Shown here one piece after another: positions 6,403 through 14,437 of a stretch of 64,000 bases of DNA. Numbering within the stretch: position 1 is the first letter of the stretch; each line of letters opens with the position of its first letter. The notes under the pieces were generated by a model. The model saw only the letters and a list, made by a program, of their open reading frames with translations. It did no database searches and was not told the DNA's origin. A program made the position numbers and the translations under genes. Source of the DNA: Arthrobacter antibioticus (GTDB taxonomy: Bacteria > Actinomycetota > Actinomycetes > Actinomycetales > Micrococcaceae); the NCBI RefSeq assembly GCF_030063205.1, contig NZ_JASISQ010000001.1:733152-797151 (forward strand), given 5' to 3'.

Positions 6403-7406
6403 GCATGGCGAATCTGCGAGTAGGACTGATCGGTCTAGGGATGATGGGTCGCCACCATGCCAGAGTGATCCGCGAAGTTGATGGTATTGAGCTTGTTGCT
6501 GTAGCTGACGTTTATGGCGATCCACATGGGGTGGCTAAAGAACTGCCTCTCTTGCGTAGTGTTGAGGAACTCATCGCTGCTGGACTGGATATGGCTGTGG
6601 CGGCCGTCCCCACGGGCATGCATGAAGAAGTGGGTTTAGCGTTAGCCGCAGCTGGAATCCATACATTAGTGGAAAAGCCGATTGCAGCCAGTGCGCCAGC
6701 AGGTCAACGCTTAGTGGAAGCTTTCGCAGCCAAGGGTCTTGTTGGCGCTGTGGGGCACATCGAGCGTTTTAACCCCGCTTTGCAGTCGCTGCGCAGCAGA
6801 ATTGCTGATGGCGAGTTGGGTGAGGTCTACCAGATTGCCACCCGCCGACAAGGACCGTTCCCTTCGCGTATCGCTGATGTTGGTGTGGTCAAAGATCTGG
6901 GTACGCATGACATAGACCTCACAGCATGGCTGGCCCAGAGCCGCTTTGAATCAATATTTGCCCAGACCACAACACGTAGTGGCCGGCCCCACGAGGACAT
7001 GGTGGCCGCAACAGGCAAGCTCGCCAATGGTGTGATCACCAACCATCTTGTCAACTGGCTTTCACCCATGAAGGAACGCCTGACGATTGTCACCGGTGAA
7101 AAAGGTGCATTCGTAGCTGACACTGTCACAGCTGATCTAACATTTTTCGAGAACGGGATAGTCGCTACTGAATGGGAGTCCATGGCAGCGTTCCGTGGTG
7201 TTTCCGAGGGCAATGTGACCCGCCTGGCCATCGCCAAGCCTGAGCCATTACGCACTGAACACGAAGCATTCCGTGACGCCGTGCTGGGCTTGCGCAATGA
7301 CGTAGTCACCATGGCCGAAGGACAAGACACTCTCCTTGTAGCAGAAGCAGTACTGGAATCCTCCAGATCTGGGCAGCCCGCAGCGATGCCCTCAAATCTG
7401 CAGTAA
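6399..7406 (+). CDS. UDP-sugar 3-dehydrogenase, Gfo/Idh/MocA family (WbpB-type)
   Basis: A 335-residue oxidoreductase with an N-terminal NAD-binding motif (VGLIGLGMMGRHHARV) and the family's EKP catalytic motif in HTLVEKPIAAS (around residue 92). The stretches VGHIERFNPAL and DLGTHDID are typical of UDP-N-acetyl-sugar-uronate 3-dehydrogenases. It is expected to oxidise C3 of UDP-GlcNAcA before transamination. Translation starts at GTG 6399, overlapping the previous stop, or possibly ATG 6405. It is the last gene before the insertion-sequence nest, so transcription of anything once downstream has been cut off. The pathway assignment is inferred from the neighbours. Confidence 0.85.
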   Translation: MSMANLRVGLIGLGMMGRHHARVIREVDGIELVAVADVYGDPHGVAKELPLLRSVEELIAAGLDMAVAAVPTGMHEEVGLALAAAGIHTLVEKPIAASAPAGQRLVEAFAAKGLVGAVGHIERFNPALQSLRSRIADGELGEVYQIATRRQGPFPSRIADVGVVKDLGTHDIDLTAWLAQSRFESIFAQTTTRSGRPHEDMVAATGKLANGVITNHLVNWLSPMKERLTIVTGEKGAFVADTVTADLTFFENGIVATEWESMAAFRGVSEGNVTRLAIAKPEPLRTEHEAFRDAVLGLRNDVVTMAEGQDTLLVAEAVLESSRSGQPAAMPSNLQ

Positions 7407-7509
7407 GTACCCCCTTCTTATTCATGACTAAATAGCTACCGAGCCAAGTGGCGCCTACTGAAATTCTTTGCGAGCTCGTCAATGGCTGGTATTTTGCGCA
7501 GCCTGAGAG

Positions 7510-7617
7510 CCACTTGTAATCCTCAAGGTTGAAGATCGTGGTGGCAGCATCAGGGTGCGGCAAAGTAAGCTCGTTCAAGGCTCGTGGTCCTGTCATCGAT
7601 GGATGCGTCAAGAACAT
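7510..7617 (-). pseudogene. ISL3 transposase fragment of copy C (first ~35 residues)
   Basis: The minus-strand reading frame from ATG 7617 begins MFLTHPSMTGPRALNELTLP and continues to IFNLEDYK. It matches the first residues of the transposases of copies A and B almost residue for residue. Homology stops near 7510, after which the frame runs on into unrelated sequence. No catalytic domain is present. It is a dead remnant. Confidence 0.8.
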
Positions 7618-8710
7618 CCATCACAGCAGGGCTACGAGCCACCTTCGTCCAGTGGCTCTCCGTGGTTCGTGGTGAATTCCATTGTCGTCATGGATGATTC
7701 ACCGCTGTTCTGGCGGCGCTTCTGAGCATAATCCTTGTTGTGTAGTTGGTGCTATTGACGAAGCCTCGCCCGGTCCTTTTGATGTGTTTGATGCTGGTGT
7801 TGTTGGCTTCGACTTTCCCTGTGGTCGCGCCGGTGACAATGAGGACTTCGATCTCTTTCCACCACCGGCAAATATTCCGCCACAGCCGTGTTGTCTCAGG
7901 CTGACGGAATTCCTTGACGAGATATTCGAGGTGTTCCTTCGCCAGCTCGGCGTCTTCCAAGGAGCCGGTGCGCAGCACCGTTCGTACTCGTTCCTTCACA
8001 TCCCACGCTGCCTTGAGTTTCCCGGTCTGATCATCGGTGGCGAAGACCTGCTCTAACCGTGCCCGGGCCTGATCTGAGAGGGAATCGCCGGCGCGTAGGA
8101 GCAGCATCCGATGCGCCCAGGCAGGATCCACAGCCCGGCCACGACGACCCCGCACCTGATGGGAGAGCGCCTGCCTCACCTCTGTCAGTGCCTGGTTCGC
8201 GAGTTGTATGAGATGAAAATGGTCAACGGAGACGGCGGTGCGGGGCAGCCATATCCGTAGCGCTTTCCTGAATGCTGCCGAGGGATCAATAGCTACGACT
8301 TGAACGCCGAGTCGCCATTCCAAGGGTCCTTTGATCAACCAAGCCCCGACCCCGGTGTGGTCGCGCCCGTCAACAACACCTAGGATCTGCCCGGTATCCA
8401 GATCAACGATCGTCGTCATCCACGGCTCGATCCGCTGCCACGCATTGATTTCCGTATTTTCGAAGAAGCGGACGGCGCCGAAGTGGTGCTCATCGATGCC
8501 GAGCATCCTTGGCCGCAGGAGGTCAACGTTGGGAAGTTTCGTCGCCGCTGTGGTCAATGCTTTTTGCACTAGCCACCAAGAGACTCCATGGGCGATGGCT
8601 GTCTCCGCTGCGGCCCGCCCGGAAGAGATGACCGCAGCAACGAGTGCGCCATGGAGCCGGCGGGTGGAGCGAGCCCGGGCAGGGACCTCGAGCGTGGACT
8701 CAGAAAAAGT

Positions 8711-10155
8711 GGCTCTCCGTGGTTCGTGGTGAATTCTGGTTTCGTGTCCTTGAACAGAGGTGGCGCGTAGCCCTGTTGTGATGGATGTTCTGACGCATTC
8801 ATCTTTGACAGGACTACGAGCCTTGAACGAGCTTACTTTGGTGCACCTTGATGCTGCCACCACGATCTTCAATCTGGACGATTACCGTGTACTTGAAACC
8901 CAGATCCTGAGTTTTGGCCAACGAAGAATTCAGATAGCAAGCACCGCCGAATCCGGGTGTCCTGGCTGCGGGGTCATTGGCACCCGTCGCCATTCTGGCC
9001 GGCAGCAACGAGTCAAGGACATCCCCATCGCCGGTCCGGTGGAGGTTGTTTGGGCCAAGCGGCGACTGTTCTGCGACGAAACATTGTGCCCTCGCAAAAC
9101 GTTCTTTGAAGCCACGATCGAGGTCCCGGCCAGGGCACGCACCACGAGCCGACTCCGTAGTGCTCTCGTGCGAGCAGTCATTGACTCTGGCCGCGCCGCA
9201 ACGGAAACCGCCACTGCCCACGGGGTGTCGTGGTGGTTGGTTCAGAAGGCGTTGAGTGTGGCAGCAACCAAACTTCCCAACGTCGATCTGCTGCGGCCAA
9301 GGATGCTCGGCATTGATGAACACCGCTTCCGATCCGTCCGCTTCTTCAAGAACACAGAGACCAACGCGTGGCAGCGGATTGAACCGTGGATGACGACGAT
9401 TGTTGACCTGGATACCGGGCAGATCCTTGGTGTTGTTGACGGCCGAGACCACACCGGGGTCGGTGCATGGCTCATCCAGCGGCCCCTGGAGTGGCGCCTC
9501 GGCGTTCAAGTTGTCGCGATCGATCCCTCAGCAGCTTTTAGAAAAGCGCTGCGGATGTGGCTGCCCCGCACCGCCGTTTCCGTGGATCATTTCCACCTCA
9601 TCCAGCTCGCCAACCAGGCGTTGACAGAAGTCAGGCAGCAACTTTCCCATCAGGTGCGTGGGCGTCGTGGCCGAGCCGTGGACCCAGCCTGGGCACACCG
9701 AATGCTGCTCCTACGAGCCGGTGATTCACTTTCCGAGCCAGCCCGGGTGCGGTTGGAGAAGGTCTTCGCCACCGACGATCCGACAGGGAAACTCAAGACC
9801 GCGTGGGACGTAAAAGAACAAGTGCGAACACTGCTGCGCACGGGGTCGTTGGAGGACGCCGAGATCGCTAAAGACCACCTTGAACGCCTCGTCAAGGAAT
9901 CCAACCAACCTGAGACGACTAGGCTTTGGCGGACCATTTGCAGGTGGTGGAAAGAGATCGAAGTCCTCATCGTCAGCGGCGCCACCACGGGAAAAGTAGA
10001 AGCCAACAACACCAGCATCAAACACATCAAGCGGACCGGCCGCGGCTTCGTCAATAGCGCCAACTACACGACTCGTATTATGCTAAGGAGCGCCGCCAGA
10101 ACAGCGGTGAATCATCCATGACAATAGTGGATTTCACCACGAACCGCGGAGAGCC
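8711..10155 (+). mobile_element. Intact ISL3-family insertion sequence, copy B
   Basis: A 1445-bp element. Its left terminus begins GGCTCTCCGTGGTTCGTGGT at 8711 and its right terminus ends GAACCGCGGAGAGCC at 10155. The two are imperfect inverted repeats of more than 20 bp. It is flanked by a perfect 8-bp direct repeat GAAAAAGT (8703-8710 and 10156-10163). It carries one complete transposase gene and nothing else. The perfect duplication, intact gene and intact ends mark it as the youngest insertion in the nest and possibly still mobile. Confidence 0.95.
8781..10121 (+). CDS. ISL3-family transposase (copy B), complete
   Basis: A 446-residue DDE transposase. The N-terminal zinc-binding region has cysteine pairs GCPGCG and FCDETLC. 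A helical DNA-binding region follows (HGVSWWLVQKAL). The catalytic triad is visible as Asp179 (LGIDEHRF), Asp248 (AIDPSAAF) and Glu407 (GKVEANNTSIK). ATG 8781 is preferred because the protein then aligns from its first residues with the copy A and C transposases. An upstream TTG at 8760 would add seven residues. The C-terminus ends 34 bp before the right terminus of the element. Confidence 0.93.
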   Translation: MDVLTHSSLTGLRALNELTLVHLDAATTIFNLDDYRVLETQILSFGQRRIQIASTAESGCPGCGVIGTRRHSGRQQRVKDIPIAGPVEVVWAKRRLFCDETLCPRKTFFEATIEVPARARTTSRLRSALVRAVIDSGRAATETATAHGVSWWLVQKALSVAATKLPNVDLLRPRMLGIDEHRFRSVRFFKNTETNAWQRIEPWMTTIVDLDTGQILGVVDGRDHTGVGAWLIQRPLEWRLGVQVVAIDPSAAFRKALRMWLPRTAVSVDHFHLIQLANQALTEVRQQLSHQVRGRRGRAVDPAWAHRMLLLRAGDSLSEPARVRLEKVFATDDPTGKLKTAWDVKEQVRTLLRTGSLEDAEIAKDHLERLVKESNQPETTRLWRTICRWWKEIEVLIVSGATTGKVEANNTSIKHIKRTGRGFVNSANYTTRIMLRSAARTAVNHP

Positions 10156-10598
10156 GAAAAAGTCTTCCGCTCACAGAATGCCTCATCGCAAAAGTATCGG
10201 TACTTGCACCAGAGGACTTCGACCGGGCCGGCCACGGGGATGTCACGCACTCGTTGCCATCGCCTCGAATGGCGGCGGCCACCAATGACACCGCAGCCAG
10301 GGCAGCCTGACTCGACGGTGCTTTCAACGTAAATTCGGCGCTTTCCATGGTCAAGGATCTGGGTTCCTAGAACCCGGTAGTCCTCAAGGTTGAAGATCGT
10401 GGTGGCAGCATCAGGGTGCACCAAAGTAAGCTCGGTCAAGGCTCGTAGTCCTGTCATCGATGAATGCGTCAAGAACATCCATCACAACAGGGCTACGAGC
10501 CACCTCTGTTCAAGGACACGAAACCAGAATTCACCACGAACCGCGGAGAGCCCGTTCAGTGACACGAAACCAGATTTCACCACGAACCACGGAGAGCC

Positions 10599-10704
10599 GT
10601 CAATAGCGCCAACTACACGACTCGTATTATGCTCAGGAGCGCCGCCAGAACAGCGGTGAATCATCCATGACAATAGTGGATTTCACCACGAACCGCGGAG
10701 AGCC
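10599..10704 (+). mobile_element. ISL3-family copy D, 3' end remnant
   Basis: These 106 bases encode the last 23 residues of an ISL3 transposase (VNSANYTTRIMLRSAARTAV, then NHP and a stop) followed by a right terminus ending GCGGAGAGCC at 10704. They differ from the same stretch of copy B at a single base. The fragment begins exactly where copy C's right terminus ends. That is what insertion of C into D would leave if the left halves of both were later deleted. Confidence 0.85.
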
Positions 10705-11050
10705 AGTAAAAGAACAAGTGCGGGTCTTGTTGCAAACTGCTTCATTAGAAGATGCCGAGCTGGCCAAAGACCGCCTCGAAGAGTTGGTGCAAGCATCGAA
10801 GTAACCGGAGACGACCAGGCTTTGGCGGACCATTTGCCGGTGATGGAAAGAGAGCGAGGTCCTCATCGTCACCGGCGCCACTACCGGAAAAGTCGAAGCG
10901 AACAACACCTCCATCAAGCACATCAAACGCACCGCCCGCGGCTACCGCAACCGAAACAACTACAAATCAGTTATTCACCTAAGAAGTGCCGCCCGGACGA
11001 TGGCATGACATTCACCCGGGAACCCGAATCCCCACGAACCACCAAGAGCC
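10705..11050 (+). pseudogene. ISL3-family copy E, degenerate 3' part
   Basis: Translation from 10706 gives VKEQVRVLLQTASLEDAELA and further transposase sequence up to RSAARTMA and a stop at 11006-11008. It aligns with the C-terminal ~100 residues of copy B but is clearly more diverged. Two in-frame stop codons interrupt it, including TGG to TGA in the CRWWKE motif. The right terminus, CACGAACCACCAAGAGCC ending at 11050, belongs to a variant end type. The fragment begins immediately after copy D's right end, so D probably inserted into E. Confidence 0.82.
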
Positions 11051-11157
11051 GGATTATCGCCACGCGGAGGAAGGAATGCCGATTCCAAGGAATTCGTGGC
11101 ATCCCAGTCTCTGGGGATGTTGAAGTCCTAAGACTCGAGTGGCTCTTCGAGCAAATC
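11051..11157 (+). pseudogene. ISL3 transposase N-domain fragment, copy F
   Basis: Translation gives IIATRRKECRFQGIRGIPVS followed by GDVEVLRLEWLF. This aligns nearly without gaps to residues just after the first zinc-binding cysteine pair of copy B (VIGTRRHSGRQQRVKDIPIA, then GPVEVVWAKRRLF). It starts directly after the terminus of copy E and ends near the stop codon of the next gene. It is too short for function. Confidence 0.6.
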
Positions 11158-12051
11158 TGAAATCCACTGATCGACAGTCAGAAGAGACGGACTATTACGG
11201 AATCCAATTTCTGAAAGATTCATTTCTAATGAATCATTTCTTTTAACCACCGCAGAGATAACGCCGTCCAGAACTTGTCGCGGAACCGGTCTATGCCCAA
11301 CACCGAAGTCCGACAATAACAAATTCAAATTTACATTACCGCTCGTAGATTGAACAAATTGGAGCATATTATCGCGCAGGTAGTACCTATCTCTAACATT
11401 TTGTATATAAACAATAACATTCTCACTATTTTTTTTGTATAATGAAGACACATTCATAACAATATTCTCACGCATGATTCTATGACCCGCAGTTCTTCCT
11501 GAGGCCCGAAAACAGCTCCGCAAATATAAGCCAAGATCTTGTTTCGGTCGAGCATTGAGGTCAATTCTAGGGTTTGCCACAATTGCTACCGCACCGTGTT
11601 CCAACCTACTATGCAGCAAAGCGGCAAATCCGCCACCAGATGAACCGAAATAAATAGCCTTTGACCCCAAATGTGTTTTCATAATAGTCCCAATGATTCT
11701 TGGAATATCACTGATAAGGGACTGCTTTCTATTTCCAAGAAACCACGCCAAATTAAGCGAGTCATCAAAGCAGAGTGAGGGATCAGACAACGAAATCAGG
11801 TTCATGTTGTGGTCTTCGGCCAAACGCTGACCGGAGAATACGGGTAGCACTTGCATCTTCTCATTCAATGACGAGTGGAAAACAATCAGCGTGGTTTTAG
11901 CGCCGCGAAACACGTTCAGAACGTCCAGCGGATAACCGTCATAATCGATAGTGATAACTCCAGTGGGAGAATACGCTGCCTCAAATGTATCAATAGAACT
12001 GAAAGTAGTCTGTTTGATCCCAGTGTAACCCTCAAGAGTTCTACGTGACAT
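11128..12051 (-). CDS. Alpha/beta-hydrolase-like protein of the glycan locus
   Basis: A 307-residue protein without a signal peptide or membrane segment. A nucleophile-elbow motif FGSSGGGFAAL (about residues 135-145) matches the GxSxGG pattern of serine hydrolases. A later D-R-Y-Y and the segment GVGHRPVP could supply the acid and histidine. It may be a polysaccharide-modifying esterase, acetyltransferase-like protein or lipid-handling hydrolase. I cannot name the family with certainty. The gene is AT-rich and separated from its upstream neighbour by about 205 bp in which I see no clear gene. Its 3' end (11128-11157) overlaps the last ISL3 fragment on the other strand, so the C-terminus may have been changed by IS activity. 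Confidence 0.6.
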   Translation of the reverse strand: MSRRTLEGYTGIKQTTFSSIDTFEAAYSPTGVITIDYDGYPLDVLNVFRGAKTTLIVFHSSLNEKMQVLPVFSGQRLAEDHNMNLISLSDPSLCFDDSLNLAWFLGNRKQSLISDIPRIIGTIMKTHLGSKAIYFGSSGGGFAALLHSRLEHGAVAIVANPRIDLNARPKQDLGLYLRSCFRASGRTAGHRIMRENIVMNVSSLYKKNSENVIVYIQNVRDRYYLRDNMLQFVQSTSGNVNLNLLLSDFGVGHRPVPRQVLDGVISAVVKRNDSLEMNLSEIGFRNSPSLLTVDQWISDLLEEPLES

Positions 12052-12256
12052 TTACAAATCCTATTTGACTAGTTTACTACAGCGTGTATTCTAAACTACC
12101 TGGTGTTGGAAGAACTCAAATCATTTTAGCGTAAGTTAATTCAATCCGATACAAAGTCATCGATTACTGTCAACTTGCAGTTCTGCCAATAGCATTCAGA
12201 GAGCCGGCAAGTGTCAAGTAGGGCAAAAGTGCACACAATAACCAAGAAATGGAGAC

Positions 12257-14437
12257 TCATTTTTGAAGCTCCAGAACTTCAGCTAGCCACATGCTTTCAA
12301 GACTATCGACATCGAATCGCTGACTAAAAATTACGGCCGCCTCTGCTTCCCGCGAACGTTGACTTTCGTTCGAAGCGAGTGCATGAATTCGATTTACTGC
12401 TTCAGAGGTGTCCTGTACTTTCCAGCGATCCCCGAAGATTCCGTCCACCCCTGGACGATCCCAGAAGATCGGAACCGCACCGCTAGCCATGCCTTCGGCA
12501 GGAGCCAAATGAAAACTTTCATCTGAGCTGGGTGACAGCACAAATCCAATTTTGCGCATCCACGATCCCATATCAGCGCCAAATGGCTCAAAGACTATCG
12601 ACCTGAGCAATCTCTTATCAGCACCGATATCACTGAAAATTTCCCTGTAGACCATCTGCTGAGTGGGTTTTTTCCACTCATAGTCATACTCCCAAGGCAT
12701 ACGACCTTTGACATGGAGAGTGAATCGTTCGTCTCGTTCGAGAAGTCCTTGCATCAGCTCAACGGCTCTGTCCAAGCGCTTACGAATAGGTACGATTCCA
12801 ACCAAGCCCAAACGGAATTCACTATGGGCCAACTTGGGACGATTGAGATCTAAACTATTTACAGAATTTGGTATCACTTTTATATTAGCCCGAGCCCATC
12901 CTTCCATTTTCCGAACCCGTTCCTCATATAGACTCGAAACGCAGATGAGGGTATCTATCGCTTCAACTGCAATCTTCTGGAGCCAAGGTCCTCTAAGTTC
13001 AAACATATGCAATCTGACAATGAGCTTTTGTCTATTTCGCTTATTGTTGGAGTACCATACAGCGTTTGGACCCGCCCATTCGCAGATAACCACGTCAGCC
13101 CACTCAGCAAGCGCTTCAGACGCCTCTTTGTCATGCACATGCAGGGAGGGCCATCGGTCAAATCTTAATTCAATGTCATCCCTAACGAATAACATATCTA
13201 CTAATTCGCCTGCAAATTTTAAATCATGACTTGCAAGGACAACACGAACCTTTCCCACGTGTCTTGGTACTGACTCATAATTAGGCTCCGAAGCCGTGAA
13301 ATACGCCTCTAACCTCCGTGCAGATGCGCTGATGGAATATTCACCCACGCATTCCCTCACGTGCTCTCGAAGCGTGGTAGGTACGTGGCCGAGCTCAGCC
13401 AAAACATCTACCACCTCTTTAACATCGTCCTTCTCTACATATAGGGGATACTCAACCCCAAAGAGTTCCTCATGAGCGGCATTTCTATTAATTAGGGGTG
13501 GTACACCCAGTGCAGCAGCCTCGAGAACTTTAGTAGAAATCTCAAAACTATCATCCATCTTTTGGCTACGCCAGCTTAAGGAAATGTCATGGCCTGAGAC
13601 AACTTTAACAGCGGCGTCACGCGACATGCCACCGAGCCATGTCAATCCGTCCCCTTGGATAGATGCTTCCATCTGTGATGCCCACTCCACATCGTGCGGG
13701 TCTCTTTGAAACTTGTCACCAATCATCGTCAGCTCGTTATCTATTCCTTCATTAGACAAGAGCTTGGGGAGCTCACACATCTCCAAAGTCCGCCAATCCT
13801 TGGCGAACTTGCCGGAATAAACCAGACGGATCGCCTCCCCGCACGGTGAATCGAAATTCACTCTAAAATATTCGTCAGGAACCATCGGTGTGAGGACTAG
13901 GGTCTTTCCGCATGCTTCTGGTGCAATTGACTCTAGGTATGACTGAGCATCTCGAGTCTGGGCGAACATCCTCCTACAGGAATTCGCAATTTTTCGAATT
14001 TGCTCTAAACGTCGGGCATTAATTTGCTGGGCTGGATGAGGTATATCAGTCATGTAGAGCCATGACTTCGCTGCTAATGCAGGAGAACCCGCGACATGAC
14101 CACTAACTATGGATCCTCTGCAGATGACAACATCAGAATGCAGTGTTCTGTCGATTTCAAGCAGCTTTTGAGCCGCATCACGTGGTGATAGTTCCGTCTT
14201 TGAAAGGTGGTCATGCTCAGCAAAAGGCTGCACTATGCTGACATTCGATAAACTCTCAATCCTGTCTAAGAATCCATTTCTCTCAGCGTTTTTTTTGAGT
14301 AACACGGTGACATGTGAACTGGTGCAAGACAAAGCTTCTACCATCGACAGCAGCCATATAGCTGATCCGTCAATTGTATTCAGATCAATATCACCATAAA
14401 GTAATATTCTTCTGCGTTTCATTTTAGGATTACTCAT
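12257..14437 (-). CDS. Tandem-domain glycosyltransferase (two GT4 modules)
   Basis: A 726-residue protein that reads as two GT-B units fused head to tail. Module 1 (about residues 8-385) contains RILLYGDIDLNTIDGSAIWL, LVYSGKFAKDWRTLEMCELP and DSFEISTKVLEAAALGVPPL. Module 2 (about residues 395-725) contains VRVVLASHDLKFAGELVDML, RLGLVGIVPIRKRLDRAVEL and SPSSDESFHLAPAEGMASG. Each carries the acidic donor-site pattern of GT4. The protein is cytoplasmic, with no transmembrane helix. It could add two sugars in succession or polymerise a disaccharide. The start at 14437 overlaps the stop of the upstream gene (14434) by four bases. Confidence 0.8.
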   Translation of the reverse strand: MSNPKMKRRRILLYGDIDLNTIDGSAIWLLSMVEALSCTSSHVTVLLKKNAERNGFLDRIESLSNVSIVQPFAEHDHLSKTELSPRDAAQKLLEIDRTLHSDVVICRGSIVSGHVAGSPALAAKSWLYMTDIPHPAQQINARRLEQIRKIANSCRRMFAQTRDAQSYLESIAPEACGKTLVLTPMVPDEYFRVNFDSPCGEAIRLVYSGKFAKDWRTLEMCELPKLLSNEGIDNELTMIGDKFQRDPHDVEWASQMEASIQGDGLTWLGGMSRDAAVKVVSGHDISLSWRSQKMDDSFEISTKVLEAAALGVPPLINRNAAHEELFGVEYPLYVEKDDVKEVVDVLAELGHVPTTLREHVRECVGEYSISASARRLEAYFTASEPNYESVPRHVGKVRVVLASHDLKFAGELVDMLFVRDDIELRFDRWPSLHVHDKEASEALAEWADVVICEWAGPNAVWYSNNKRNRQKLIVRLHMFELRGPWLQKIAVEAIDTLICVSSLYEERVRKMEGWARANIKVIPNSVNSLDLNRPKLAHSEFRLGLVGIVPIRKRLDRAVELMQGLLERDERFTLHVKGRMPWEYDYEWKKPTQQMVYREIFSDIGADKRLLRSIVFEPFGADMGSWMRKIGFVLSPSSDESFHLAPAEGMASGAVPIFWDRPGVDGIFGDRWKVQDTSEAVNRIHALASNESQRSREAEAAVIFSQRFDVDSLESMWLAEVLELQK

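Follow-up and report, generated by a model that had tools for sequence, protein, structure and literature searches.

How a stack of insertion sequences (ISs) from one family came to be built at a single place, and in which order its layers arrived, is the question raised by a locus of Arthrobacter antibioticus, an environmental Arthrobacter with a draft genome of 3,792,603 bases in 21 contigs. In the window (the whole stretch of DNA that was analysed, 64,000 nucleotides), a complete ISL3-family element, designated B, splits a second one, A, which lies in turn within the remains of a third, C, and three further ISL3 fragments (D, E and F) follow on one side (Table 1). An account by nested insertion, with B in A, A in C, and D to F as remains of older elements hit in turn, is considered very probably correct. 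The genes scanned near the stack encode sugar-nucleotide dehydrogenases, an aminotransferase, an oxidoreductase, glycosyltransferases and a LytR-CpsA-Psr protein, and the neighbourhood is suggestive of a polysaccharide locus. No drug-resistance family was present among the matches of the 16 distinct window ORFs scanned, and no Rfam family reached its gathering score at positions 7000-12500.

Table 1. Features of the ISL3 stack and further ISL3 matches of the same draft genome. Positions are those of the window, except in the last five rows (locus and genome coordinates).
Feature	Position	Strand	Remarks
Element B, complete ISL3-family IS, innermost layer	8711-10155	+	1445 bp; terminal repeats, length
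B transposase ORF, intact frame	8760-10121	+	453 aa; PF01610, PF14690, NF033550
Target duplicate of B, left copy	8703-8710		GAAAAAGT
Target duplicate of B, right copy	10156-10163		GAAAAAGT
Element A, 5' piece, left tip 10552, includes one octamer	10156-10552	-	residues 1-105 from ATG 10478; PF14690
Element A, 3' piece, right tip 7654, transposase stop at 7688	7654-8702	-	PF01610, E 7e-47
Target duplicate of A	7646-7653		CGTCCAGT; 7/8 against the other copy
Target duplicate of A	10553-10560		CGTTCAGT
Predicted RNA hairpin, B 5' leader, around transposase start	8762-8822	+	z -3.4
Predicted RNA hairpin, A 5' leader	within 10410-10512	-	z -6.2
Element C, left tip, first 46 bp	10553-10598	-	100% to congener copy (L021 5705-5750)
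Element C, continuation, element positions ~38-176, cut off at 7516	7516-7653	-	94% to congener copy (L021 2668-2806)
Fragment D, right end of B-type element, positions 1340-1445	10599-10704	+	106 bp
Fragment E, right end of divergent ISL3 element, positions ~1104-1448	10705-11050	+	86% to L023_5185
Fragment F, ISL3 scrap, positions 267-339	11057-11129	+	73 bp; 81%
Second B-type copy, same genome	L020:7247-8691 (G000 C11:657246-658690)		duplicate GGTAATCC on both sides
PF01610 match with stop	1023978-1024553		
PF01610 match spread over two frames	661639-662330		
PF01610 short piece with stops	655482-655793		
PF01610 short piece with stops	743854-744123		

Elements of the ISL3 family have terminal inverted repeats of about 15-40 bp and duplicate 8 bp of their target. 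In B the terminal inverted repeats have 26-nt arms (92% complementary), and the transposase matched Pfam DDE_Tnp_ISL3 (PF01610) at an E value of 9.2e-49 and NCBIfam transpos_ISL3 (NF033550) at 254 bits (cut-off 180), with the zinc ribbon PF14690 present at 37.2 bits (cut-off 25.5). By its DDE domain, zinc ribbon, terminal repeats and 8-bp target duplicate, B is thus assigned to the ISL3 family on sequence grounds. The sequence-only reading had described a complete and intact ISL3 element inside another, flanked by a perfect 8-bp target duplication, and each of these points was reproduced: B is whole, with both tips and an unbroken transposase frame, it splits A, and GAAAAAGT stands on both sides of it with 8/8 bases identical, an agreement expected by chance between two given octamers at about 1.5e-5 (4^-8, by arithmetic).

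A spans positions 7654 to 10552 on the minus strand, with B inside it in the opposite orientation. When B and one octamer are taken out, 397 + 1049 = 1446 bp remain, so that the lengths given earlier (1446 bp for A, 1445 bp for B) were recovered. The frame of A was judged from its two pieces, which were translated separately and then compared by codon phase. From its ATG, the 5' piece is open for the 105 codons that precede the octamer; the 3' piece is open for 340 aa plus the stop from the octamer onwards, and the octamer is read in the same codon phase in both, in agreement with the earlier claim of two halves in frame (105 + 341 codons). The two pieces also match adjacent stretches (residues 2-106 and 107-446 of 446) of an uninterrupted Arthrobacter relative, L026_1474, with identities of 91/105 and 308/340, respectively. 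The order of events, claimed to be readable as A first and then B, is upheld. Since both pieces are free of stops, A was probably still whole until B inserted and silenced it. None of eight genomes, the own genome included, yielded a close copy of A without an insertion (best match to the long piece outside A itself, 85%), and an empty site was not found in Arthrobacter sp. TMP15, a sister genome bearing the label of the same species, where the left-flank gene matched at 78% and the right flank gave no match in a search run without a positive control.

B-type copies elsewhere in the own genome and in TMP15 are 99.6-99.8% identical to B. The nearest known relative, a plasmid copy of TMP15, differs from B at 3/1445 positions, and at all three B stands alone among the four B-type copies (two of this genome, two of TMP15), one of the substitutions altering an amino acid (S406, T in the others); the claim that the inner copy is recent is thereby supported, though not to an extreme degree. 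The second B-type copy of this genome carries a premature stop at codon 210 (W210 to TGA). Among the eight PF01610 matches of the draft genome, B alone has the domain (positions 10-240) free of stops, in one frame and in an uninterrupted element, so the stack holds the one whole-looking ISL3 transposase of this draft genome. B is a complete IS and possibly active today. Two near-identical B-type copies in a draft of 21 contigs might also have been wrongly joined during assembly, so that the nest would be an artefact. This is regarded as extremely improbable, since the two copies differ from each other at 5 positions and share neither flanks nor duplicates, B has identical octamers on its two sides, and the same kind of nesting is seen in other genomes.

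The earlier two-element picture is extended by four older layers, C to F, and by the position of A within C. These layers were mapped with a panel of 60 oriented relatives (an L021 coordinate plus 4848 gives the window coordinate). C runs on in register on both sides of A, at positions 46-1 and 176-38, and therefore A sits in C; the octamers flanking A, CGTTCAGT and CGTCCAGT, agree at 7/8 positions. At the break of C, a 7-bp GGCTCTC could be assigned to no other element, because the sole own-genome match of 7400-7520, left of the break, was the stretch itself. Along the stack C adjoins D, D adjoins E and E adjoins F, and both target duplicates are preserved only for B in A and for A in C. Read most simply, this is a stack of six layers, with B in A, A in C, C in D, D in E and E in F, from which the left parts of C to F have been lost. 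D has 0/106 mismatches to three B-type copies and 1/106 to B, and by this near-identity the insertions of C, A and B would follow a rather recent event, although with only 106 bp D is too short to date that event.

For D, E and F only one side survives, F being short and diverged (73 bp at 81%), and these junctions could instead come from element-mediated deletion. In the wider form of that argument, D, E and F are debris of deletion or of recombination between ISL3 elements, and A/B and C/A are the only real nested insertions. D and E do survive as right ends only, with no left partners seen, and elsewhere tips lie beside ISL3 DNA with unmatched octamers (3/8 at L054, 2/8 at L156, 5/8 at L191 and 1/8 at L023). 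Against debris, D, E and F each break off at a tip, with gaps of -1, 1 and 6 bp, and the octamer beside D (AGTAAAAG) reads E-like when compared with a related fragment, as insertion predicts. The debris reading is on balance rather unlikely, and insertion of each layer into the next is preferred.

In a survey of relatives of B, matches were obtained in 15/23 genomes of the genus and 51/395 of the family (the own genome being counted in both), and the search with B in named genomes gave 50 loci. From 130 loci picked for their similarity to B, a few places being represented from two collections, 62 distinct complete elements were drawn; a flank key served to discard exact duplicates, and at least 8 flanking bases were required of each element; as two candidates were scored per genome in the survey of the 395 family genomes, these 62 are a sample. 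Perfect 8-bp duplicates flank 41/62, and the target rule was derived from these 41 (the remaining 21/62 being left out): A/T occupies position 4 of the octamer in 98% and position 5 in 95%, and positions 1, 2, 7 and 8 are mostly G/C. The C/A target site departs from this central A/T rule.

ISL3 DNA was found within 25 bp of a tip in 10/62 complete elements (6/44 among those with matching duplicates), so landing in or beside kin is common in this sample. Between ISL3 segments, 29 of 45 non-duplicate adjacent pairs are tip-to-internal-break junctions; of the others, 12 with neither or both tips were left uninterpreted and the rest are tip-to-tip. Because some of the 29 represent both sides of a single event, and because L061 and L164 are the same place, 22 events at 17 loci remain; the orientation is opposite in 12 and the same in 10. 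In many of the 22 only one side is kept, and those could be deletions. Both sides are kept in further nests at L030 and L042 (octamers 8/8) and at L203, where the octamer overlaps the tip by one base.

Several single loci were recorded in the same survey. L042:2501-7533, from Arthrobacter sp. ISL-5, is a multi-layer nest in which the host is cut with CCTTCAGC on both sides and the insert is itself split by about 2.1 kb. At L148:7612-9063 (TMP15), an ISL3 element has landed directly next to another, and nothing but its 8-bp duplicate separates the two tips. Two right-end fragments from different genomes, L020:5502-5872 and L164:75-445, are both 371 bp and start at position 1078 of L023_5185. 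Arthrobacter-type ISL3 pieces are contained in L068, from the record of Sporosarcina beigongshangi REN13, and L233 (G015, a genome placed in Arthrobacter) has the same junction, both on contigs of 54,296 bases; this match suggests that the Sporosarcina name of the REN13 record is wrong.

The frequency of landing near kin leads to another explanation of the stack, namely that the clade prefers its own kind as target and that the stack is built in, as opposed to arising because dead DNA tolerates hits. Apart from B, ISL3 DNA makes up about 0.20% of this genome, and the observed 10/62 is therefore far above random landing (about 0.13 expected at that share, which is the figure of this one genome); even with a tenfold greater share of tolerated DNA as a result of selection, 10 stand against about 1.3 expected. 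Moreover, three hosts (A of the window, L061/L164 and L069) were hit at positions 384-397, an A/T-rich patch. The excess over random alone is not decisive, because landings in genes are lost through selection and the flanks contain other IS families as well. The latter were examined with the single longest ORF per side (122/124 sides), one ORF being able to match several families. With NCBIfam, the best 25 of 297 families included 6 ISL3, 3 ISAs1, 3 IS1634, 2 IS4 and 2 IS21 with single others, and with Pfam the best 25 of 31 families included 4 PF01610 and 2 PF01609. The abundances in the 51 genomes (summed tables) were 224 for PF01610, 508 for PF00665 and 152 for PF01609. Per copy, ISL3 is about 3-4-fold above rve and within about 2-fold of the PF01609 families, on very few flanks and among the matches listed. 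The loci were furthermore picked by ISL3 similarity, which favours clusters, and A/T-rich patches in the element are a plain reason for recurrent sites. A preference of the clade for its own kind is thus judged improbable, and little likelihood is likewise given to its fuller form, in which ISL3 targets are preferred at A/T-centred octamers, often inside the transposase gene, and stacks form by a self-limiting route; if it were true, new copies would silence old ones. The stack is taken as repeated landing in tolerated, A/T-patched DNA, with self-targeting as the minority reading.

Both A and B carry a predicted RNA hairpin in the transposase leader. Among 43 distinct leaders of relatives it was the minimum-energy fold in 40, as judged by eye; of the exceptions, L186 and L202 keep the inner part and L211 is without that stretch. 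RNAalifold on the 43 leaders gave 18 pairs, 2 of them with changes on both sides, and the covariation is weak for that reason. The modelled hairpin may protect the transposase against read-in of external transcription.

In the history proposed here, the transposase of B would have made a staggered 8-bp cut within A's own transposase gene, and B would have been inserted in opposite orientation, with GAAAAAGT duplicated and A inactivated. A would have entered C earlier in the same manner, D, E and F would be the remains of earlier ISL3 elements hit in turn, and later deletion would have taken the left parts of C to F. Insertion would follow the clade target, an octamer whose two central pairs are A/T, and hits would accumulate in old IS copies because these tolerate them. 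The stack can be read as an ordered record of successive transpositions by one IS family at one place; the survey adds a target rule for the clade, and the frequent ISL3-in-ISL3 landing in the sample makes self-targeting a testable question. Otherwise this is ordinary IS biology, of which the locus is a clear and readable example.

IS isoforms are delimited at about 95% DNA identity. No description of an ISL3 stack of such depth was found in searches of open-licence papers, most of them judged by title and opening of the abstract. PMC4072520 gives nested insertion as one origin of clusters of IS genes in bacteria; the window stack likewise has IS within IS, but with up to six layers from one family. 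An ISL3 copy on the TMP15 plasmid pAsp15-1 (NZ_CP154263.1) resembles B in its length of 1445 bp and in having its own 8-bp duplicate, AGTATGAC, but unlike B it lies between topoisomerase IB and DNA ligase genes, outside any IS. Among the named elements found, the nearest in kind to B is ISArsp7, an ISL3-family element listed for plasmid pA44BH1 of an Antarctic Arthrobacter in Table 3 of PMC6305408. It is like B in having an ISL3 transposase as its sole gene, a similar size (1451 bp), similar terminal repeats and an 8-bp duplicate, CCTTTGCC; the repeats, the 1451-bp length and CCTTTGCC on both sides were confirmed in the pA44BH1 record, and its leader folds into a hairpin similar to that of B. 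In contrast, 940/1486 aligned DNA columns are identical (63%) and protein identity is 57%, and the annotated neighbours of ISArsp7 are not transposases (4290 bp examined), unlike those of B. B as an isoform of ISArsp7 was ruled out by the 63% DNA identity, and B is therefore another IS of the same family.
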